From Dioscorea cayenensis subsp. rotundata (Eukaryota > Streptophyta > Magnoliopsida > Dioscoreales > Dioscoreaceae), in the NCBI RefSeq assembly GCF_009730915.1, contig NC_052475.1:31991016-32055015 (forward strand): a stretch of DNA of 64,000 nucleotides, given 5' to 3'. The notes beneath the pieces were generated by a model. The model worked only from the letters and a program-made list of their open reading frames with translations. It had not been told where the DNA came from and did no database searches. This document shows, piece by piece, positions 2,830-21,217 of this stretch; positions within the stretch are counted from its first letter, which is position 1; each line of letters starts with the position of its first letter. The position numbers and the translations under genes were made by a program.

Positions 2830-3834
2830 CAAAAAAACCCTTTAAGTTTGTAAAAATTGCCAAAAAAACACCCGTTAGTTTTTGCGATCCCCAAAAAAAC
2901 CCCCTCCTTTTTAAAAGTCTATGTTTTTTTCAAACCCCCAAACCACATAGCGGATGTGAGCGGAGTGAGTTTCAAATTTTTTTGGGACGAAAATGCCCTT
3001 GCATGGGGAGTCGTGGGCTGCGACCATCTCGGCGATTTGAGGAGGAAGTGGGGGGTTTTTCAGTAGGGAGTAACCCAGAGGCAATTTATTGGAGCCGTTT
3101 AATTGCTTTTTCTCGACTCACGTCTTGACTTTTCCATTTCAAAGTTTGTCTCGAAGTTGTCTCTCGCGTGAAAGCCTCTGTAATTAGCATTTCATCGACT
3201 TTTTCCCTTTCCACGGTATCTCGAAGGAGAAGTCCCCAGTGACTAGTTGGCATTTCATCGATTCTCGATCTAAGGTATTGAGTATGGTTTTATGTTAGCG
3301 ATTACATTACTAAAAGAAAGATTTTTTTCGGTTTTGTTTTGTGCTCTGTTTTTTTGTTGGAAGATATTGAAAGTCTGCGAGGGATTTCTCGGTTTGGGGT
3401 TTTTGTTAGTCTGCGAGGGAGATTTCTCGGCTAGGGTTTTGTTTTGTTTTGCATTTTCGTATGTATACACTATCGAAATAGTTTTTTCGATTGTTATGAT
3501 TTATGTAATATTTATAATGTACATTTCCCGTTTCGTTTTGATATGGTTGCGATTTCTGAAATGAGGTTGACGTTTAAGAAATGAGATATTCTGAGTTTAA
3601 CATTTGTTGTCTCGTTTAAAGTATTCTCGTCTCTGTTTAACAAAAATGGGTCTCTGTTTAACATTTTATATCTACATTTAATAAGCGAGAGTTCTGGTTT
3701 AAAAACCTTATATTTACAGCTTAAACTTTTTGTCGAAATCTTGCGAGGCTTGTGATTATGGCGGTCGACCTAGTTAATGGGCGTTGCTATTTGACACGGT
3801 TGTGGAGACCTTAGGCTGAATTGAAAGTTAACAT

Positions 3835-6800
3835 GACCCCTCGACAGCTTTGGGAGATTATTCGAAGGACACCGTTTGCGGCGTTATTTGGTGGAAGCCA
3901 TATACCAGAGAGGGCCCTTCTTGATTCTCTTTTTGCAAAGATGCGATGGTCGCACCCGATAAATTCGGGGATCGGGGAAAAGCTGCTTTGAGTTTCGAGA
4001 CCTCGAGATGTGGCCCTCGTTCTTGAGTACGCGTTGCGATAGCGGCCGGTGGTCTTCGGAAGAAGAAAACCCGGTCGGCGTTCGAAGGGCGGTATCTATC
4101 AAAGACCTACGAGAGGCAGGAGACTCCATCGAGAGCACTACGGTGCAACTTGTTCGACGAGAGGGAGAAGAAGATAATTTTTGTCAAACTCGATGGTGTA
4201 CCTCGTGGGGGACGAGTCCTCTTCCCAAATACATCATGCTCGGTTCGAGCCGGATCGTTGATTACGTCGATGATCTACCGGCCATGGGGGCGTCTGGCGT
4301 AGGGCGCGAGCGGCGCTGAAGTGGCTTATGGAGGATATTCCTGGCGGCCGCCCGAGTGCAAGATAGATCTGCCGGGAAGAAGACCAACACGAGAGTACAT
4401 TAAGGGTTGCTCGGTCGCTTAACGTCCGGTTTCTGGTGGCCGGGAGCAGGGGAAGAAAGTCCGTTTCGGCGAGATCCCAAGGATCTTTGTGCTACGGTGA
4501 AAGTACTTACGGAAGCAAGCGGCGGTGAAAAGCGAGCTTGTCGTCGCTCGATGGAAAAGAGGTAATAAATCATGGACGATGTCTAACATAAGTCTTTAAT
4601 GTTTAAACATTTTATTTAGCGTTTAACTTTAGTATTTACCGTTTAACTATTATTCATAACCGTTTTAAATATTTTTGTTCTCCGTTTAATTATATTCTAT
4701 AACGTTTAAATATATAGTTTTTTTATAGTTTAAAAATGAATGATCTCATTTGAAATTGTTTTGGTTTACATATGTTAGTTTCTGAGTGGTTCGTGAATCT
4801 TTGAAGAAAGAAATATTTGTTGGCGCCAGACAAGCGGATGGATGCCATTGCTCGGGAACCACTTGCTCGAGGCGGGGATGAGAGGCGGCCTCTATCGTGC
4901 TTGTGCTGGGCGCTCGTTCTCCTACTTCCGACCCACCAGCGCCGCGCATTCCTCGGCCAGGAGAAGCCCTCCCCTACCCGGCGGTTGCAGCAACCCCCTA
5001 CCACGACAGCGAGCGGTCCCCCGACCATGGCGGCCCCTCCGGCCGTGGCGGCCCACGGTGACATTAGGGCGAAGATGTCACCCGCAACTCTTATGCGGGC
5101 GTGCGAGATATTGATGACCGAGTTTCCTCGGCATGTCGCTCGTGTGGGTAGCTGGAAGGGCGTTCGCGGCCAGTTGCGCCATCCCTCGAAAGAACCGAAA
5201 GCACCGGGGACGAGCAGGCGTCGGGATTTGGCGGCAGCGACATCATCGGGAAGGTCGTTTCAAAGCGGCCACATTCGAAGAGACTTGCGAAAAAGAGGAG
5301 AACAATCTGCCTCTGTCTCCAGCGTCGGTGACGATGAAACAATAGCAACACCATCGGCGGTGATCTTTATTCTTGAGTGCATCGCCGTTGATGACATGGC
5401 CGTGAGCGGTGGAGGACATCGTAGATGATGTGGCCGTTGCCGCGGTTGAGAAGGTCGTTGACTCTCTTCTCGATGAAATCGTCGACCCGGTGGAGCCAGG
5501 TTGCCGAGATGCGGCATCGAAAGATGGACACAATCCACGAAGGTCGAGAACAAGTTAAGGGTGTGTCTCCCAGTGATCTTTGTTGTCATGGCCACGGTTG
5601 AGAAGATCGTCGAATCCGTTCTCGTGGCCGTGGCCGGCGATACTGCTGACCAAGCGGGGACACAATCCCACCACAACAAGAACCATGTAAGGGAAGTGTA
5701 CTGCGGTTGATCTTTGTCGCCGTCGTCCCGCGTCGAAGCCGGACACAATCCCACAACAAGAACAACAATGTAAGGATGTATGCGGGTTGATCTTTGTCGC
5801 CATCGTCCCGCATCGAAGGAAGATCTTGATGAAGACCCCAGACCGAAAGCAGCGAGAGAGATGATCAAGGCCAATCAAAAAAATTGGACGGGGACGGCTC
5901 GGAAAGCTTTTTATTCGAAGAAGAAGAAATGGGTTGGCACTGAGTCGTCTTAACAAATCTGACGAGGGAGTTGATGAGGATCTTCCTCAGCTGCTCTATG
6001 GGACGGAGTAAGTGTAACGTTTTTATGATATTGTTTAAAGGGTTTCTTATAGTGTTTAACTATTACCTAATAGTGTTTAATACCATTATGTTATCATTTA
6101 AGTTTTTAGCCTTACCGTTTAATTATATATAATATCATGTAACAATTGATAATATCATTTAAATATTTCTGATATGGTCTTCTAATATACATTATCGTTT
6201 AACCTCGACAGCTATGTCGTGTGGAAGAATAGCCTTTGTCGGCCTACCTGTGACGGGTTATACTACTGCTTGAGGGGAAGGAGATGGTCGTTGATGATGT
6301 GATGGGCGCTTTTCGTATGCATAATACAAAAAGTCGGTGAGCGAAAGAGCCATATCCTTACAAGACGCGCCTCCATCATCGAGACCGCTTACTGTTGTTT
6401 ATGTCAAAGCGGGAGACGGCGCACATGACACAATTATGGCTATGATCGGGGATCTTTGTCGCTGACTGCATGAAAGTTCAAAGTGTCATCCTCCCGATAA
6501 TCATGAATGGCCACTTCCATGTCGTCGTCACGGACAATGATAAACAAGAATACGAGGCGTTATTCTTCATGTCAGGGAGTGCGATAAGGACAGCGTTGGA
6601 CATGGTAAGTTCTTTAATTATGTCCGATTAATATACATTTTGGTATTTAAATCGGTATTCTAATCTCGACTTGCATATCTCGGCGGTGGAATCTATTCGA
6701 CCTTTGTGTCGATATGGAGTTAAGCGAGTCGGCGGCAACAAAAGTACCCGCTCGTGCGCGACACGAAACCCACGCCAAAAAAACAAGGAAGCGTCGATTG

Positions 6801-6942
6801 CGCCGTCTACGTCATCGCGGTTTATCGAGCAATTCTTGTGGGGTGAGAAGTTACGACTACATGCAGACGGGGCGTTCCTTACCTCGGATTACGGTATGTT
6901 ACCCGCATACTTAAGGAGGGAGGCGGTCGGGCGTCCATGACA
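3835..6942 (+). pseudogene. ULP1-like C48 cysteine protease of the MULE, broken
   Basis: The plus strand can be read, with frame changes, as a plant transposon ULP gene. About 3835-4560 gives an N-terminal block (TPRQLWEIIRRTPF, RDVALVLEYALR, GSLIDYVDDLPAMG with frame shifts) that resembles the DUF1985 domain usually fused to these proteases. About 4800-6000 is a low-complexity basic linker. About 6460-6900 is the C48 peptidase core: PIIMNGHFHVVVTDND carries the catalytic His (codon near 6512-6514) and the Asp that follows, and QGSVDCAVYV carries the oxyanion Gln and catalytic Cys (codon 6799-6801). Phe replaces the usual Trp after the His. C48 enzymes cleave SUMO or similar ubiquitin-like proteins; in MULEs their job in transposition is unknown. 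Stretches at 3566-3730, 4590-4740 and 6015-6210 look like introns. Several stops and frameshifts make it non-functional as it stands. Confidence 0.72.
5525..5820. repeat. About 80-bp direct repeats in the ULP linker region
   Basis: Two clear adjacent units at about 5658-5741 and 5742-5820 share acaatcccac, aacaagaac, atgtaagg, ggttgatctttgtcgcc and cgtcccgc. A more diverged unit precedes them at about 5525-5600 (gacacaatccacgaagg, gatctttgttgtcatgg). They lie in the low-complexity linker of the protease gene, where repeats would expand or shorten the protein. Confidence 0.75.
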
Positions 6943-7034
6943 AAGGGGGTCGTCCAGCGGGTTAAATTACATTTTTTTGAATAACATGTCTTGTATGTCA
7001 GTTTGTCGATTTTGTTTTCAAATGTAAATCTGGA

Positions 7035-7586
7035 CAAATTCAATTCATTGTTTTCGTGTTCGAAGAACATGACTTGTATATCTTAATGTAAATTTTTGTT
7101 TGTTTTGAATTGTAAAAGCGGGTTAAATTCCATTCGGTTTTTATTTCATTGTTTAATTTACGTTGTGATTGTGTACATTTCACTTTCATTGTTTAAATAT
7201 AGTATATATCGTTTTAAACATCGGTTTTAAATATTTCAAATTACGGTGTACCCGTTTAAAAATAACACTTTCTCTGTTTAAATAGAATGCACTTATTGTT
7301 TAACTAAATATGGAAAGTTGCCCATCAATACACAATTCAATTCATTGTTTTTTTGTTTTTTCGAAGAACATGACTTGTATATCTCAATGTAAATTTTGTT
7401 TGTTTTTCAATTGTAAAGGCGAGGTTAAATTTCATTCGGTTTCATTTCATTGTTTAATTTACGTTGTAGTTGTGTACATTTCCGTTTCATTGTTTAAATA
7501 TACCATATATCGTTTAAACATCGGTTGAAATATTTCAAATTACGAGTGTATCCGTTTAAAAATAACAATGTCTCCGTGTAAATACA
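7035..7586. repeat. Direct duplication of about 255 bp inside the MULE
   Basis: The segment 7035-7290 recurs at 7331-7586. Both copies contain in the same order caattcaattcattg, ttcgaagaacatgacttgta, a tcattcggtt block, taatttacgttgt, ttgtgtacattt, then several gtttaa motifs and tatttcaaattacg. The copies differ by scattered substitutions and small indels, so the duplication is not recent. It is noncoding and sits between the 3' ends of the two convergent transposon genes. Confidence 0.88.
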
Positions 7587-7595
7587 TTCAATTAG

Positions 7596-10090
7596 TTATA
7601 AATACACAATGTTTCCACTGTCATCGTCGGTTTTATTAACAATGCCTAGTCGGTGACGAGTTTCATTACAAGATCGTCGATTGTGGCCGGATCCTTGGCG
7701 GCAGTGCAGATGTAACTCGCGGACATCAAGCGCTTGCGACTCGATCCTCTTTCGTCTAGGCCGCCCGGTGCCTTCTAATCGCGGGCGATGCATAAGCGAA
7801 GCTCACGATTTCCGTCCGAAGGCTGTCATCGTCGGGTATGGGGAATATAGCTTCCTTGTATGCCGGGTTTGTAATTATCGGCGGTGAAGTACCGCTCATA
7901 AATCGATGTACGTTGGTGTGCATGCGCATTATTCTTTGCGCAAAGCATGTTTTGCAAGGGATACCATAAACTTGCCACCTTCGACATGAACAAGTTCGAT
8001 GGCGAGATCCCGCGGAGTTCTTTGCATTGGTCGATCGCTTCGTAGCGATCATCGACACAGACGACCAACACGAAGATTTGGTTTCGTCCTCAACAATGAT
8101 CTCTAACCCGAATGTATGTCGGGCGTAAGTGGGTCTCCCATTTGGTCGCTTGCTCACGCTGGGTTACATAACATGCGCATCAACTTGAACACGGCAAATA
8201 AGGTTAAACAAAAGGCGGTGATGGTTAAATAATTACGTCAACATGTTTAAACATTATTGTAATTAAATAAAGCGAAATGATTAATATTTAAAAGTCGAGA
8301 AAAAGTGTAATTAAACAAAGATTGAGAATGTTTAAAGGGTAATACTAAATGTTAAGTGTAAATCAACATTCGCGAGACCTTATGGAGTCGACCATTTTAG
8401 ATCGTCGGTAAATGGCGAGCTTCCTTGATCCAAGCATTGAGCGACTCCATGACGTTCGAATACATCTCACCCCAGCGATCACCTCCGAGCGAGATAATTC
8501 GACCAATGTGCCATATCCGATTTATTAATCAACCCGGTGATGAGCTTGGGTGATATGGCTGCGAGTTCATTCACGGTATCATCGAAATCTTTAGCCGTGG
8601 ATGCCCACGCAATGCTGGGAAAGCATATAGACCGACACTCCTCCCTCGATGCCTTCCCAAGTCGACATTGGCTTTCGTAAAAATTGGCCTCCAAATGTCG
8701 AAGGCGATGCGCGTGTGGCGAAGAAGGGAAGACTCTCGCAATTGCGCTCACGAGGCCCTTGGACACGTCCGACCACGAAGGTAATTATCTCATGATAATC
8801 TCCACCCTCGTATAAGGCATCGCCCTGACTTAGATATGAACCAAGTCAATTGGCATCGGTCTCGTTGTCGACTATACCGAAGGCGGCGTGGAAAAAAACC
8901 ATTGTTACCATCTTTCCTGTGGCGCGGGTGAGTGTACCCCGATATTTTTCAAGGAGGTGGGTACCATCGAGAAAAGCAGCTGACACTGCAAGCCCTCTTG
9001 AATCCCATGATACCCATGTTGAAAGAAAAGAATGCACGTTTAAAAGCGATCACCGTCTCTCTCCACGATCGCTTAGCTGCTAGGGTTGTCTCGACCACCT
9101 TATCCACATACCAAAAGCAAGCGAGTCATAGGGCTGGAGATGTCACTTGCAGTCGAGGACCACCGGGCATGCTCTTTTTCCCAACCAAGCACTGCTTGTA
9201 TGGTATGTGGACACCATGTTCCCATAACATGTCCTACGAATGTCGATGGCCTTGTACGAGGGGCGGTCCTTGAGCTTACGAATCACTCGTGCGCTAACCC
9301 ATTTTTTTGGGCGCTTTTCGGATGTGGCCTTGAACCTATGCCACCACCGCAAGTGTGTGGCGGGTTGATTGTCTTGATTACGAAAGTATTTTTTTGTTAT
9401 ACTCTTTTGATGCGTGAAGGCGCCAGCGACAACCATCGGGACGCATTCCACGATCGCTCGATGTTTTTTTCGTTCTTTATGAATTTGAAGTCAAAAATTC
9501 CTTTTTGATTGCATGATTTGAAAGTACATCCACGAAATGTTCGACACCGTCAAAAGCGTTGACCAATATCCAGCGACAACACTTGAGAATGATCGGCGAG
9601 GAAGGAAGACATCCCACGCGTCGAGGTCGCCCATGGGGATGAATGGGGAGCACTCGCGAGAATCCGAATTCACTGCTAACACTTGATCGAATGAAAAGAT
9701 CAATATGTTAAGCGGAGAATATAATGTTTAGCGATAATGACAATAGTTAAGCGTTAAATTAAATACTTAAACAATTAACTAATAACGTAAAGGACTAGTA
9801 CTGATATGTTAACCCGATGGCGGACATATTTAAACAATAATGACCCCGGACAAGCTGAAATAATTAAAAGAAAAGGAACTTACTGACGAGTAAACCTCGT
9901 TTTCATTAGGATTCGACAATGGCACATTTTTACGTCTCGACGACAAGATCAACTACTGACACATTTGAAGATGGAGTGGGCGTGACACATCCGATGGAAG
10001 TCGACATCGTTTTCTATTGGGCGAAACCGTTTTTATATCCATACGGTGTGATGAACTTAACCACGACAAGAGAAACTTGAGACCCCATCG
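7596..10090 (-). pseudogene. MURA-like MULE transposase, broken
   Basis: Read on the minus strand with frame changes this is a Mutator-type transposase. From the N-terminal side: SIGCVTPTPSS near 9990-10010; RPKKWVSARVIRKLKDRPSYKAIDIR at about 9200-9330 (plant MULE N-terminal region); FLDGTHLLEKYRGTL at about 8930-8980 with the first catalytic Asp; KGLVSAIARVFPSSPHAH..RHLEANF at about 8670-8760, the region before and through the family's CX2H motif, whose Cys is Arg here; HWLI..SDMAHWSNYL at about 8480-8530; TCSCRRWQVYGIPCK at about 7945-8000, the SWIM zinc finger; and GRPRRKRIESQ..DVRELH..CRQGSGHNRRSC at about 7670-7780, a C-terminal zinc knuckle. One extra A in the run 7950-7953 shifts the frame right after the SWIM CK and would restore CKHALR if removed. 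Spacers at about 8160-8370 and 9700-9880 look like introns. Several frameshifts make it inactive. Confidence 0.85.
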
Positions 10091-10929
10091 GCTCACATAT
10101 CTCAGTAACACCAATTCCCAAAGTGCGGGACGTGAACATTAGCACTCTTCCCTCCCGTTGAATCTAGCAATACCACAAAAAAACTCTCCATAATATATCG
10201 ATTCGAAAACCAAATCGTACAAACCAAATGAAATGAAGAACAAAAGCGAAGGCGGCGAAGAAGAAGTAGAAGATGTAAAGAACAAGCGGTCGAGCAGCGC
10301 AAACAAAAAAAGTGCGAGTTGTATGCATAGAGGTTAGACTAGGCGTGATGTGATTGGGCGGTATTTTTTTCCCTCCATCCCAAGGGCAAAAAGGGAAATA
10401 TATGTCATTGTCGCGAGGAAGACATGTTGTCATCGTTCGAATGAAAGTTCTCAACTCAACATGAGTCTACGTGTAAGCGTCAAGCTTTTTATGTTTAAGC
10501 AGGATACATATAGTGTTTAAAATAACGGTTAGCTGTTTAACTAAAAGTCTATATCATGTAAATAATATGTTATTGTTTAAATTGAATGCTTTTCAGTGAC
10601 ATCGCGTTGCTAGATGGGTACCTCACGAGTCATTTTGTTTAAACATATTTACGTATTTTCTTAAACACCGTTGTCGTTGTTTAAAGAGTAACTTGAGTAT
10701 TGTTTAACTTTTTTTCTATTGTTTACAATGAGCGTTTTTTTGTTTCCCACATTGTTTTTACTAGGTCTCTGTTTAAATTTCGAAGTTCACGAGTCAAATA
10801 CGATTGTTTTCGTTTTATTTATAAAAGATTTACAACATTTACAACATTTACAAAGATTTACAACATTTACAACATTTACAGACGTCCGCTCGGACTTTGG
10901 GACACTCACGACTCGACCCTCGTATAGCT

Positions 10930-12459
10930 GAAACAAGTGTGCGTACATTCGAATGCTCACGGCGGTTTGCATAACAAAGCGCATCAACTTGAACACGCAA
11001 AAGCGTACAACATTAAAAAGGTTAAACAACACACATTCATGAAAAGCGACTATTAATCAATGTGTCGTGGTAGGACTTAAGCAGCGATCGATAGTTAAAC
11101 ACGAGCGTAGCTGAGTTGTACTGCGGCGTCATTTTTCTTAAGCGTTAACGAGAAAGTCTCAAGTGGTAAATGTCAACCCGTCTTAAAGGATGTTTCATGA
11201 TCTCCCTCCTCTAGAGAATCCTCCGCAATCACGCGATACGTGAAAACTTTCTTTTTCATACCCAAGTCGAAATGCTCTCTTAATTGCTTTCCCGTCGTCC
11301 ACATTTGGAGAATCCTCGCATTCGAGGCGATTATGAGAGGACTTTCGACAGGCGAGAAAAAGATAGTTTAACTAGTTCGGTGATTACGGCTGAGTGATTC
11401 TCAAGATAAGGAAGAAGGCTCACGAAACATCCTTTCGAGATAGAGTGGTTGTCCGTGGGAAGAGGAGGAAGAGGAGGAGGAGGAGGAGGAGGATGATGAG
11501 GGACGGCGAGGGGTGGTTGTCCATGGGGAGGGTTCTTCACAGTTGTTATGGTGTGAAGTCCTGAGCGGTGACTCTTCGTGTCAGAAAAAAAGTTAAGCGC
11601 ACGATGGCCGGGCATTGGTGATGAGAGCGAGCGGGTGTTGGGAAATTTATGTTACCGTGCATAAGAATTAATGCAGTCATTAATTCTTACGCTGCGGGAT
11701 ACCCTAACCTTGCCACGCCACGTGCCACGTGCCAGACAATTCGGATCAAGCGAAAAAGATCACCGTTTCTGCGAGAGACTTTGAGAATTTACGTTTATGA
11801 ATAGTTATACATGTAAAGATAATGTTAAGCGGAGATGGGAAGTATTAAGCGGATATGACAATTATTAAACATATTAGTAAAATATTTAAGCGGATAATAG
11901 CAAATAGTTAAACATTATTTAAAAATATACAAATAGATAACCATAAGCGAGAAAAGAACTTTACAACGAAATGAACTACGTCGTAATTCTTTGCATTCTT
12001 CTACGTACGTAATACAACTTTACAACCATAAGCGAGAAGGCGACAATGGCACATGCTGCTGCCTCGACAATAAAAATCGACTACTGACTCGTTTTGAAGA
12101 TGAAGTGCACTTGACCAATCCGATGGAAATCAATTTCATTTTACGTTAGAAACCGATTTATATATTTCGGGTATGATAATGAGGAGAACAACAAGATGTA
12201 ATGTAACTCCTTGGCATTGTCTATCAGAAACCAAGCAGAAAGCCCTTCAAAAGGTTGAACATGATGTGATTTGGCGCTTTCCTTTCCCACTATTTTCAGG
12301 GCCAAAAATGGGATTTCACAACATGGACCCATTTGAAGTGAACGGTAGGGGGTAAAAGGGAAGTTAAACACTAACGGAAGGGCTGTCCGTGGTGTGTAAA
12401 AGTAGGAGGGGGTTTTTGGGAAGTTTTGAAAATTACGAGGGGTGAACAGTAATTTTCCC
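10930..12459. repeat. Second, shortened copy of the MULE right half
   Basis: Three blocks of the upstream element recur here in the same order and orientation. About 8140-8215 (gcgcatcaacttgaacac, ggttaaacaa) matches about 10945-11030. About 9905-10045 (gacaatggcacat, tcgac, ctactgac, ttgaagatg, catccgatgg) matches about 12050-12190. About 10338-10400 (gatgtgatt.ggcg, agggc.aaaa..ggg) matches about 12258-12315. The spacing is shorter in the second copy, so the transposase core has been lost. About 11150-11345 reads on the minus strand as DDGKAIKRAF..KKKVFTYRVIAEDSLEEGDHETSFKTG with a frame change; this might be a MULE N-terminal segment but I cannot confirm it. About 11465-11515 is a GA/GGA-rich simple repeat. 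Confidence 0.68.
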
Positions 12460-15301: not shown

Positions 15302-16460
15302 TTATTTGTCACGGTTTTTGGGGACGACCGACAGCAGCCGTGCCAAAAAATAGTGACGATGAAGCATATAGTATTTGGCCTCGGTTTTTGGCGCAGTCTA
15401 GGGCTGGCCGTGCAGCAAGTAACAAACTGCTCATCCCTTTATTTGTCGCGATATTTGGCGCATGCAAGCCAAAAGCCGTGCCAAAAACACGTGACAATGG
15501 AGAACGTGTCGTTTGGCGCGGTTTTTGGCGCGATCTAGACTTTCCGTGCCGAAAAATTGTGACAAACACCTCATCGCCCTTTTGTTGTCGCGATATTTGG
15601 CGCGTGCATGCGAGCCGTGCCAAAAAACGTGACGATGGAGAACATATCGTTTGGCACGGTTTTGGCGCGATCCAGATTTCCGGTGCCAAAAAGCTGCTGA
15701 CAAACACCTCATCCACTTTAGTTTGTCGCGATATTTGGCGCATGCTGAGCCAAAACGCGTGCCAAAAACCGTGACAATGGAGAACGTGTCATTTGGCGAG
15801 GGTTTTTAGCGCGCGATCTAAGATTTCGGTGCAAAAAGCGCTGACAAATCAGCCTCATCACTTTATTTGTCACGATATTTGCGTGCGATGCAAGCCAAAA
15901 GCGTGCCAAAAGCACGTAACTGATGGAGAGCGTGGCATTTGTCACGGGTTTTTGGCGCGTTACGAAAGCTGCTGCGTGCGCAACCGTGTTCAAACATCAT
16001 CCGCTTTATTTGTCGTGATTTTTGGCGCGACCAAGGCAAAGACGTGCCAAAAAGCAATGACGATGGAGGCTATGGCATTTGGCGCGGTTTTTGGCGCGTT
16101 CAGAGATTTCCCGGTGCCAAAAACCGTGATCCGCACTCATCCTGATTTGTCGCGGTTTTTGGCGCGGACAATCCTAGAGCGATGCCAAAAGCACCGTGAC
16201 AATAAATACGTGGTATTTGGCCGGTTTTTGGCGCGGGCAAACATAGAACGTGCAAAAACGCGTAACTCGCCATCTCATCACTTATTTGTCGCGGTTTTTG
16301 GCGCAATCGAGCAAAAGCAGGTGCCAAAACTCTAATGACGATGAAGTACATGGATTTGACGCTTTGTTTTTGGCGCGGTTTTTAACGAGTGGTGCCAAAA
16401 ACCATGAAATATCCCTCTGTGACGGTTTTTGGCACGAACAACCCAAAACTATATCAAAAA
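15302..16460. repeat. Array of about 140-bp tandem units in the CACTA subterminal region
   Basis: Unit starts, marked by TTTATTTGTCGCGATATTTG or close variants, fall near 15302, 15439, 15582, 15717, 15860, 16004, 16144, 16284 and 16415, a spacing of 131-144 bases. Each unit has the order: TTTGTCGCG + TTTTTGGCGCG, a variable 10-15 bases, GTGCCAAAA, CGTGAC.ATGGAGA, TTTGGCGCGG + TTTTTGGCGCG, about 12 variable bases, GTGCCAAAAA, then GACAAACACCTCATC. So each unit contains inverted GGCGC/GTGCC pairs that could fold or bind a transposase in both directions. Such subterminal arrays bind TNPA-like proteins in En/Spm. Confidence 0.9.
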
Positions 16461-20739: not shown

Positions 20740-21217
20740 TTTATTTTTAAAAATAAATTGTGTGTCAAAATTCAGTAACAAAAATCATATCAATATCAAT
20801 ACTAAATTTAAAAACCGTTCCATGTGACAATATGTTAATAATTATGTTAAAATTTGAAACCAGCTGACAAAAATTGTGACAAAAATTATCTTTAATGACA
20901 AAATAATTGTGCCAAATCGTGACAAATCAAGTACTTAGCGAACACTAAATTAGTGATGTCAAAAACACGTAACAAAATTAAAACATGCCAAAAATAAATG
21001 ACAAAAATCATCATGCCAAAATAGTGCCAACATTAACGTACTTAAAATCAGTGACAAATAAGCTGTCCCAAAACCGTACCAAAAGGTGGTGCCTAAAACC
21101 GTGACATTAAATTTGTGCCAAAATCGTGACAAATAAAACCGTGACAAAAACTGTACCTAAAACCGTGACAAAATTGTCACGGTTTACTATTTAAATGACA
21201 AATTATATTTGTCACGC
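20740..21217. repeat. Right-hand subterminal repeats of the CACTA element
   Basis: Many copies of GTGACAAAAA, GTGCCAAAA and AAACCGTGAC occur at short spacing, rising in density toward the gap. They are the inverted form of the TTTGTCACGG and TTTTGGCAC motifs at 15080-16460. The last readable bases, attatatttgtcacgc, switch back to the other orientation. Confidence 0.8.

Follow-up and report, generated by a model that had tools for sequence, protein, structure and literature searches.

Sequence-specific anti-silencing by transposons has, according to the cited literature, been worked out in Arabidopsis. As described in the consulted parts of PMC5735166, the DUF1985 VANC proteins of this plant bind arrays of same-orientation motifs in non-coding DNA (introns, intergenic and terminal regions), and remove silencing from VANDAL DNA. 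VANDAL21/VANC21 and VANDAL6/VANC6 are MULE-type elements with a DUF1985 gene, the product of which carries tandem peptide motifs in its variable region. Their short motifs (YAGTATTAY and AGTTGTCC/AC) undergo tandem gain and loss, and both binding and demethylation have been demonstrated (same parts of PMC5735166). VANC genes that also carry Ulp1 (KIU) target particular motifs in the VANDALs that harbour KIU, and the capture of Ulp1 is dated to the monocot–eudicot split, according to the sections used of a review (PMC13317346); the title of the KIU-specificity paper cited there speaks of eudicots. KI-MULE/Kaonashi (KIU) elements, found in plants other than the host studied here, contain an Ulp1-type gene running in reverse to the transposase (PMC2528002 and PMC13317346, in the parts consulted). 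Spm TnpA and MuDR MURA are likewise element-encoded proteins linked to reduced methylation of their own copies, but MURA acts on TIRs (extracts of PMC10398659), whereas the arrays of the full element described below are internal.

The window (the whole stretch of 64,000 nucleotides analysed here) comes from a 584-Mb plant genome, possibly that of a monocot, and contains a Mutator-like element (MULE) with same-orientation arrays of GTTTAA in its non-coding regions. The element resembles VANDAL21 and VANDAL6 in its gene content, in the tandem motifs of the putative protein and in the gain and loss of array units. Its motif is different, and the words of its arrays are set regularly at two helical turns, with poorly conserved spacers; such a lattice is not mentioned in the consulted parts of PMC5735166, the text of which does not use the term 'spacing'. 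Binding and demethylation were demonstrated in Arabidopsis, and would be predicted here. The arrays are likely to serve as targets for a VANC-like anti-silencing protein encoded by the element itself, and probably constitute a further case of VANC-type target arrays, with a new motif. A first-pass annotation of this DNA knew of no description of such arrays and so missed the published VANDAL system, although a search for the word GTTTAA in one literature collection had no hit. Among the functions that it offered, an anti-silencing signal appears best supported because the element type carries a DUF1985 and Ulp1 gene and because VANC proteins of Arabidopsis bind oriented arrays of short motifs.

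Organization of the element

The element occupies positions 2830–12459 (~9.6 kb, no strand assigned). It is defined by end-to-end collinearity (79–92% at the nucleotide level) with a near-intact relative, which is flanked by a 9-bp target-site duplication (TSD), TAATTATAA; another 9-bp TSD, TTAAAATAA, flanks a gene-less copy. The left tip is obscured by a gap of Ns (1830–2829), with ~12 bp missing as judged from the relative, and the right end reads ...CAGTAATTTTCCC at 12459. As to terminal inverted repeats, which are absent or degenerate in VANDAL/KI-MULE elements, the ends of the window element are weakly similar (score 36 vs a maximum of 33 in 200 shuffles); for the relative, the highest-scoring inverted match is located in the flanks, outside the element ends.

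The plus strand carries a VANC/KIU-like gene (3760–6940, approximate borders), made up of a DUF1985-like segment (~3815–4340), a tandem repeat (5658–5818) and an Ulp1/C48-like segment (~6240–6940). Its frame is broken, so the window copy could be a target at most. This broken gene has no DUF1985 or C48 match in Pfam, and its one ULP match in the PDB is a weak alignment to SENP7 (E 0.8) that ranks behind two Reelin ones. The window gene is resolved as a DUF1985–Ulp1 type only via the collinear relative, in which the corresponding gene, on the strand opposite to the MULE transposase, matches DUF1985 (4.7e-9, 36.8 bits vs a cut-off of 35.1), Peptidase_C48 (1.5e-6, 28.7 bits vs a cut-off of 20.7) and, in the PDB, SENP1 (E 0.011). 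By these sequence matches, the protein of the relative is of the KIU/VANC type.

The transposase gene (7640–10038, minus strand, approximate borders) is also broken in the window. Its SWIM domain (in 7756–8163; 1.7e-6) scores above the cut-off and its MULE core (in 8846–9049; 0.0019) under it, and the transposase of the relative matches DBD_Tnp_Mut (2.2e-22), MULE (3.2e-20) and SWIM (1.3e-9); together, the window SWIM match and the first two matches of the relative identify a MULE transposase. A shortened copy of the end exons of this gene follows on the same strand (10880–12179, approximate borders; longest open frame 82 codons), as it does in the relative. Segment 9914–10038 of the gene matches 12041–12165 of the shortened copy at 73%, and 8151–8198 matches 10954–11001 at 86%.

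GTTTAA arrays and their spacing

No other hexamer in the element is as strongly enriched as GTTTAA. Positions 2830–12450 contain 55 copies (39 plus, 16 minus) against a mean of 9.9 and a largest count of 20 in 300 shuffles that preserve dinucleotides in 150-bp blocks, a test independent of array borders; the window outside the element has 40, with 52.9 expected. Ten non-coding arrays with borders set by eye (1,950 bp in total) hold 43 words on the array strand, against 3.0 expected and a maximum of 10 in 1,000 shuffles, and eight on the opposite strand (2.3 expected), four of the latter within the palindromic GTTTAAAC. The remaining 7,671 bp of the element contain four. The counts in shuffled sequence rule out a composition artefact, and the excess over background and the near lack of the word outside the non-coding arrays, both proposed in the first-pass annotation, are borne out.

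Six arrays lie on the plus strand. A1 (3572–3724, six exact words) is in the leader of the VANC-like gene, A2 (4601–4733, six) in a non-coding block of this gene, and A3 (6033–6202, five) within what reads as an intron, delimited by GTAAGT at 6008–6013 and CAG at 6209–6211. A4a (7151–7303, five) sits in the spacer that separates the two convergent genes, together with its local duplicate A4b (7452–7581, four; 88% over 255 columns). A7 (10493–10776, eight) lies upstream of the transposase gene in antisense orientation, and the relative has an equally placed and oriented counterpart (E 9968–10350); this dense array (eight plus, two minus) is missing from the original list of arrays, which was otherwise confirmed. 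The four minus-strand arrays, in which the exact word is sparse, are A5 (8204–8337; three exact words on the minus strand and two on the plus) in a non-coding block of the transposase gene, A6 (9747–9835; two exact, two GCTTAA) in the non-coding block past its first exon, and, within the transposase-like remnant, A8 (11022–11143; two exact, poorly phased) and A9 (11805–11913; two exact, three GCTTAA). Seven of the eight array-strand copies of the GCTTAA variant are in minus-strand arrays; the opposite strand of all arrays has one.

The words do not recur about every 20–30 bases, as initially described, but on a lattice of ~21 bp. Out of 33 consecutive spacings, 16 are 19–24 bp, ten are 40–43 bp and four are 62–64 bp, and three (69, 73 and 80 bp) are off the lattice. 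The phase strength is 0.82 at a period of 21.0, while the largest value for 1,000 random placements, each given its own best period, is 0.57. This period of 20–21 bp, or two helical turns, along with a peak of AA/TT power at 20–21 bp and a smaller rise at 10.5 bp, would suit phased words that curve the DNA or exclude nucleosomes with no dedicated protein. However, masking the words lowers the power at 20–21 bp from 3.0–3.6 to 1.8–2.2 and abolishes the rise at 10.5 bp, and G is conserved more strongly in the word than in the spacers (0.90 vs 0.80), which makes such an architectural role extremely improbable.

Spacing also bears on the origin of the arrays. In the window, the word recurs in 29 of 38 cases, against 2–3 of 36–37 at offsets +9 to +11; the spacers are little conserved, and the same word in the same phase is found at several positions with differing spacers. 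These non-recurring spacers rule out a simple satellite. They also speak against an old 20–21 bp repeat that has spread passively by slippage and conversion in AT-rich non-coding DNA and has no function, an explanation to which we return below.

Orientation of the arrays

All seven arrays in leader or intron-like positions, including the two in the transposase-like remnant, lean to the sense strand of their own gene. The orientation is clear in the plus-strand arrays and weak in A5, which leans to sense by three words to two only. Upstream of the SWIM exon, 1.5-kb segments from 30 transposase loci have 107 words in sense and 95 in antisense orientation, where 39 are expected in total, and thus show no strand bias. 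A7, which is intergenic, is antisense to the transposase. The earlier statement that the motif follows transcription is borne out only in part. The near-intact relative (C2) has an identical layout, so the agreement represents one inherited arrangement rather than seven events.

The sense lean and the location of A3 in an apparent intron are what would be expected of a splicing or intron-identity signal. GTTTAAC resembles a plant branch-point sequence, and intron arrays would by this reasoning aid splicing. Nevertheless, both A4 and A7 are intergenic and run antisense to the transposase gene, the orientation of A4 is common to all 29 other copies examined, and strand bias is lacking upstream of the SWIM exon. 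Since arrays are kept in intergenic spacers and in gene-less copies, one of which has 26 words in 1,731 bp, the splicing signal suggested at first is disfavoured and appears very unlikely.

Arrays in other copies of the family

Other copies were picked on transposase similarity alone, as the best 29 of 149 other scored matches. All 29 have the downstream array, with 5–13 antisense words each over 1.5 kb on that side. Together with the window copy, these segments contain 286 antisense and 51 sense words (59 expected in all). Eight regions of C1 (10 stretches) chosen from the listed candidate places all match the family via genes, both ends (L129, L132, L136) or likeness to those (L137). Viral contigs hold at least 120 stretches with three-word arrays, on which no conclusion is built here. 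The gene-less 1,731-bp copy, which has its own 9-bp TSD and relatives alike up to 98%, carries its 26 words on one strand and one on the other (1.6 and 0.6 expected). Single arrays have been lost in some copies: A1 has no words in L130/131 and one in L135, and A2 has two in L130/131 and in L172. Three other DUF1985 loci (L175, L176, L177) each contain a single GTTTAA and lack any different array of comparable strength, with L175 and L176 covered for 1.5 kb on each side; DUF1985 is thus not always accompanied by arrays.

The word is more conserved than the spacers in six of six arrays (0.920 vs 0.866 of sequences, p 1.2e-5), in a comparison of interdependent columns, and one in which the word itself may serve MAFFT as an anchor. 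The pool comprised 39 sequences and the window, and rows aligning over less than 75% of the segment were dropped, which left, including the window, six rows for A1, eight for A2, 13 for A3, 36 for A5, seven for A6 and four for A9; A4, A7 and A8 lie outside the comparison. A 30-copy alignment gives 0.976 for the word vs 0.942 for spacers (p 0.0015). The excess is modest and almost nil in A1 (0.865 vs 0.858), T columns have none (p 0.26), and this modesty would fit the passive repeat introduced above. So would the tandem 20-mers with alike spacers in gene-less copies, a 671-bp inner block repeated in many copies, and the A4 duplication. The proposal of a satellite that expanded inside introns may therefore hold in part for the origin of the arrays, but not for the window, where the word recurs and spacers do not. 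Given also the better conservation of the word across copies, a functionless repeat seems quite unlikely.

Subterminal repeats bound by the transposase are known from the Ac and En/Spm elements, and the MULE transposase might bind the GTTTAA arrays in the same manner. The relative's transposase carries a MuDR-type DNA-binding domain, and gene-less mobile copies retain arrays, which in the gene-less L132 come within ~280 bp (6406 vs the end at 6123) and ~140 bp (7710 vs 7853) of the ends. The arrays of the full element, in contrast, are internal: the first begins 742 bp from the sequenced left end, 546 bp separate the last exact word of an array from the right end, and the non-coding blocks of both genes are occupied. 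The transposase-binding site put forward in the first-pass annotation thus draws some support from L132 and is disfavoured by the full element; overall, we regard it as unlikely.

Proposed mechanism and significance

What the sequences show directly is that the arrays exist, that they follow a lattice, where they lie, that the sampled copies have them, and which gene type the near-intact relative carries. Under the anti-silencing reading, the plus-strand gene of an intact element would encode a protein composed of DUF1985, a tandem peptide repeat and Ulp1 (C48). Many copies of this protein might bind side by side to GTTTAA words two helical turns apart, in introns and spacers both of the copy that encodes it and of related ones. 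Binding would clear DNA methylation and other silent marks or keep them away, so that the genes are freed; a role of the protease part is conjectural. Gene-less copies are proposed to retain and expand arrays because they could be freed in trans.

A bolder reading, which we put forward tentatively and hold to be possible rather than probable, is that VANC-type sequence-specific anti-silencing operates outside eudicots by reading a single six-base word repeated at a fixed interval of two helical turns. Unlike the fast-changing motifs of Arabidopsis, this word would have been retained across a family with ~3,000 candidate locations in a single genome, and gene-less copies would spread as little more than transposon ends and a portable, expanding anti-silencing array. 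The family, which is large and combines a simple word and a clear lattice with near-intact genes and with many gene-less copies that vary in array number, would provide a graded natural series with which to ask how many sites an element needs to escape silencing, and could show whether the DUF1985–Ulp1 system is general in flowering plants.

GTTTAA arrays of the element

The Mutator-like element (MULE) at window positions 2830–12459 contains 55 GTTTAA words, counted on both strands, compared to a mean of 9.9 and a maximum of 20 in 300 shuffles that kept dinucleotides within 150-bp blocks, which passes the shuffled-sequence check set in the first-pass annotation. The rest of the window is not enriched (40 words, 52.9 expected), and because the signal is local, the window-wide excess is mild (95 versus 70.6 expected, equalled or exceeded in 2 of 100 shuffles). 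Ten arrays were delimited by eye; their array strand has 43 words where 3.0 are expected and their opposite strand 8 where 2.3 are expected, and the element outside them has 4 in 7,671 bp. Six arrays lie on the plus strand (A1, 3572–3724; A2, 4601–4733; A3, 6033–6202; A4a, 7151–7303; A4b, 7452–7581; A7, 10493–10776) and four on the minus strand (A5, 8204–8337; A6, 9747–9835; A8, 11022–11143; A9, 11805–11913). The arrays listed in the first-pass annotation are real, but its list lacked A7.

The words form a lattice. Among 33 consecutive spacings, 16 are 19–24 bp, 10 are 40–43 bp and 4 are 62–64 bp, with three (69, 73 and 80 bp) outside this series. Phase strength peaks at 0.82 for a period of 21.0 bp; across 1,000 random placements, each scored at whichever period suited it best, the maximum is 0.57. 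A six-base stretch located at the word reappears one unit downstream in 29 of 38 cases, and one at offsets +9 to +11 in 2–3 of 36–37. The preceding base is C or T in 40 of 43 words, and the base at position −4 is never G. Of the variants, only GCTTAA stands out, with 8 copies on array strands and 1 opposite; ATTTAA (7 and 13) and TTTTAA (7 and 5) display no marked array-strand preference. In 233 kb of other loci from the same genome, mostly picked for family membership but including ten picked for GTTTAA itself, 273 of 567 same-strand neighbours at most 70 bp apart are spaced by 19–23 bp and 176 by 39–44 bp.

Gene layout and array orientation

The transposase gene (~7640–10038, minus strand) matches SWIM (1.7e-6, over the cut-off) and MULE (0.0019, below the cut-off) domains. 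The plus-strand VANC/KIU-like gene (~3760–6940) has a broken frame, in which DUF1985 and C48 find no match, and contains an 80-bp tandem repeat (5658–5818). By eye, both genes (3760–10038) seem to be disrupted chiefly by frame changes, with in-frame stops looking rarer; the frame changes could reflect decay or indel errors of long-read assembly. Beyond A7, a shortened copy of the transposase end exons (10880–12179; 73% and 86% identity) recurs in a collinear relative on another contig, C2, where it has no open frame longer than 82 codons; it may represent a third, small gene or a remnant that codes for nothing. Elsewhere in the window, tandem repeats of ~138 bp (15336–16378) and 12–39 bp (21051–21173) have words such as GTGCCAAAAAC in common, and are possibly subterminal repeats of a different DNA transposon.

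The arrays were first thought to follow transcription. Leader and intron-like arrays do lean to the sense of their own gene, clearly on the plus strand and weakly in A5. However, A4, in the spacer between the convergent genes, has the orientation of the VANC-like gene and runs against the transposase, and A7, upstream of the transposase, is antisense to it. Array orientation is therefore not a transcription rule, and we read it as an inherited layout.

A near-intact relative and other copies

The C2 relative is 9,386 bp long, is flanked by TAATTATAA on either side and is 79–92% identical to the window element in nucleotides. Its transposase matches DBD_Tnp_Mut (2.2e-22), MULE (3.2e-20) and SWIM (1.3e-9), and the gene opposite matches DUF1985 (4.7e-9) and Peptidase_C48 (1.5e-6), both over the cut-off, with a PMD match (1.4e-7) below it. 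The window array positions recur there in equal orientation, A4a and A4b being merged, except that A5 has three words per strand and A8 just two. By strand, the relative carries 44 and 23 GTTTAA (about 5 each expected).

Copies picked by their SWIM exon, blind to GTTTAA, carry a downstream array as well. The 29 top-scoring matches besides the window copy share 75% to 49% of their residues at the protein level (150 of 3,128 candidates scored), and in each of them 5–13 antisense words lie within 1.5 kb downstream of the exon. Together with the window copy, these total 286 antisense and 51 sense words downstream (59 expected in all), and 107 sense and 95 antisense upstream (39 expected in all); the downstream words favour the antisense strand, and the upstream side is enriched without strand bias. 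These copies are close kin (median 86% nucleotide identity across the spacer) and thus represent one family, not 29 independent cases. Single arrays are missing in some copies (L130/131, L135 and L172).

Agreement with the consensus across copies is 0.920 in word columns and 0.866 in spacer columns (p 1.2e-5), a modest effect in columns that are not independent and with an aligner that may favour a repeated word. Word conservation is higher in six of six arrays, barely so in A1 (0.865 versus 0.858), and by base is significant for A (p 2.6e-5) and G (p 0.0097) but not T (p 0.26). The 30-copy spacer alignment gives 0.976 versus 0.942 (p 0.0015).

Across the 584,211,761-bp assembly, whose contig C5 contains the window, there are 22,366 and 23,122 GTTTAA pairs separated by 10–30 bp (one count per strand), compared to 10,214 and 10,069 for the reversed pattern. 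DUF1985 has no match in 14 control genomes. In this genome, 150 of 455 DUF1985 candidates were scored. Locus L178, whose protein is like the family's, has 18 and 3 GTTTAA by strand; loci L175 and L176 (viewed with 1.5 kb on each side) and L177 have a single GTTTAA each and no other array of comparable strength. The DUF1985 gene at L177 (G000:C17:8418000-8424499) is diverged, its open frame spans 324 codons, and the 6.5 kb locus contains its one GTTTAA; since other scored DUF1985 places have equal frame length, it may be multi-copy.

Gene-less copies

Neither the transposase nor the VANC-like protein finds a match in four array regions from the first set retrieved (L129, L132, L136 and L137). 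Both ends of L129, L132 and L136 are common to the full element, and L137 matches those copies. The L132 element (1,731 bp, flanked by TTAAAATAA) carries 26 GTTTAA on one strand and a single one on the opposite strand, in units with similar spacers, e.g. GTTTAAGAAATGAGTTTTCT, that resemble the first unit of A1. Its outermost arrays lie about 280 bp and about 140 bp inside the element ends, and this closeness leaves room for the alternative that they are bound by the transposase. A search with L132 gave at least 76 matches of 84–100% identity (40 of 3,136 candidates scored), and an inner block (query 632–1302) is repeated in many of the matches listed. Its number varies among gene-less copies (G000:C12:10416770-10419810 and others), a possible series of array dosage. 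A 130-codon acidic open frame lies between the L132 arrays (L132:6725-7117).

Relation to VANDAL and KI-MULE elements

In Arabidopsis, VANC proteins bind oriented arrays of short motifs in non-coding VANDAL DNA; VANC6 is paired with different motifs, and variable regions of VANC proteins often contain tandem peptide motifs (PMC5735166). RdDM silencing also targets VANDAL non-coding regions (PMC10398659), KI-MULEs carry a Ulp1 domain in reverse orientation to the transposase (PMC2528002), and a review describes the VANC genes that carry Ulp1 as acting on particular motifs of elements like their own (PMC13317346). The anatomy of the present family fits these elements, including the 80-bp repeat inside the VANC-like gene. 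It departs from them in its word, GTTTAA, in a regular two-turn lattice, whose spacers in the window are poorly conserved, and in its host. No description of GTTTAA arrays was found in one library of open-access literature, and one may exist elsewhere. The arrays are genuine and well ordered, and the explanation that fits them best is that they are predicted targets, with a new motif, of a VANC-like anti-silencing protein. From the anatomy we infer that this protein would bind and demethylate them.
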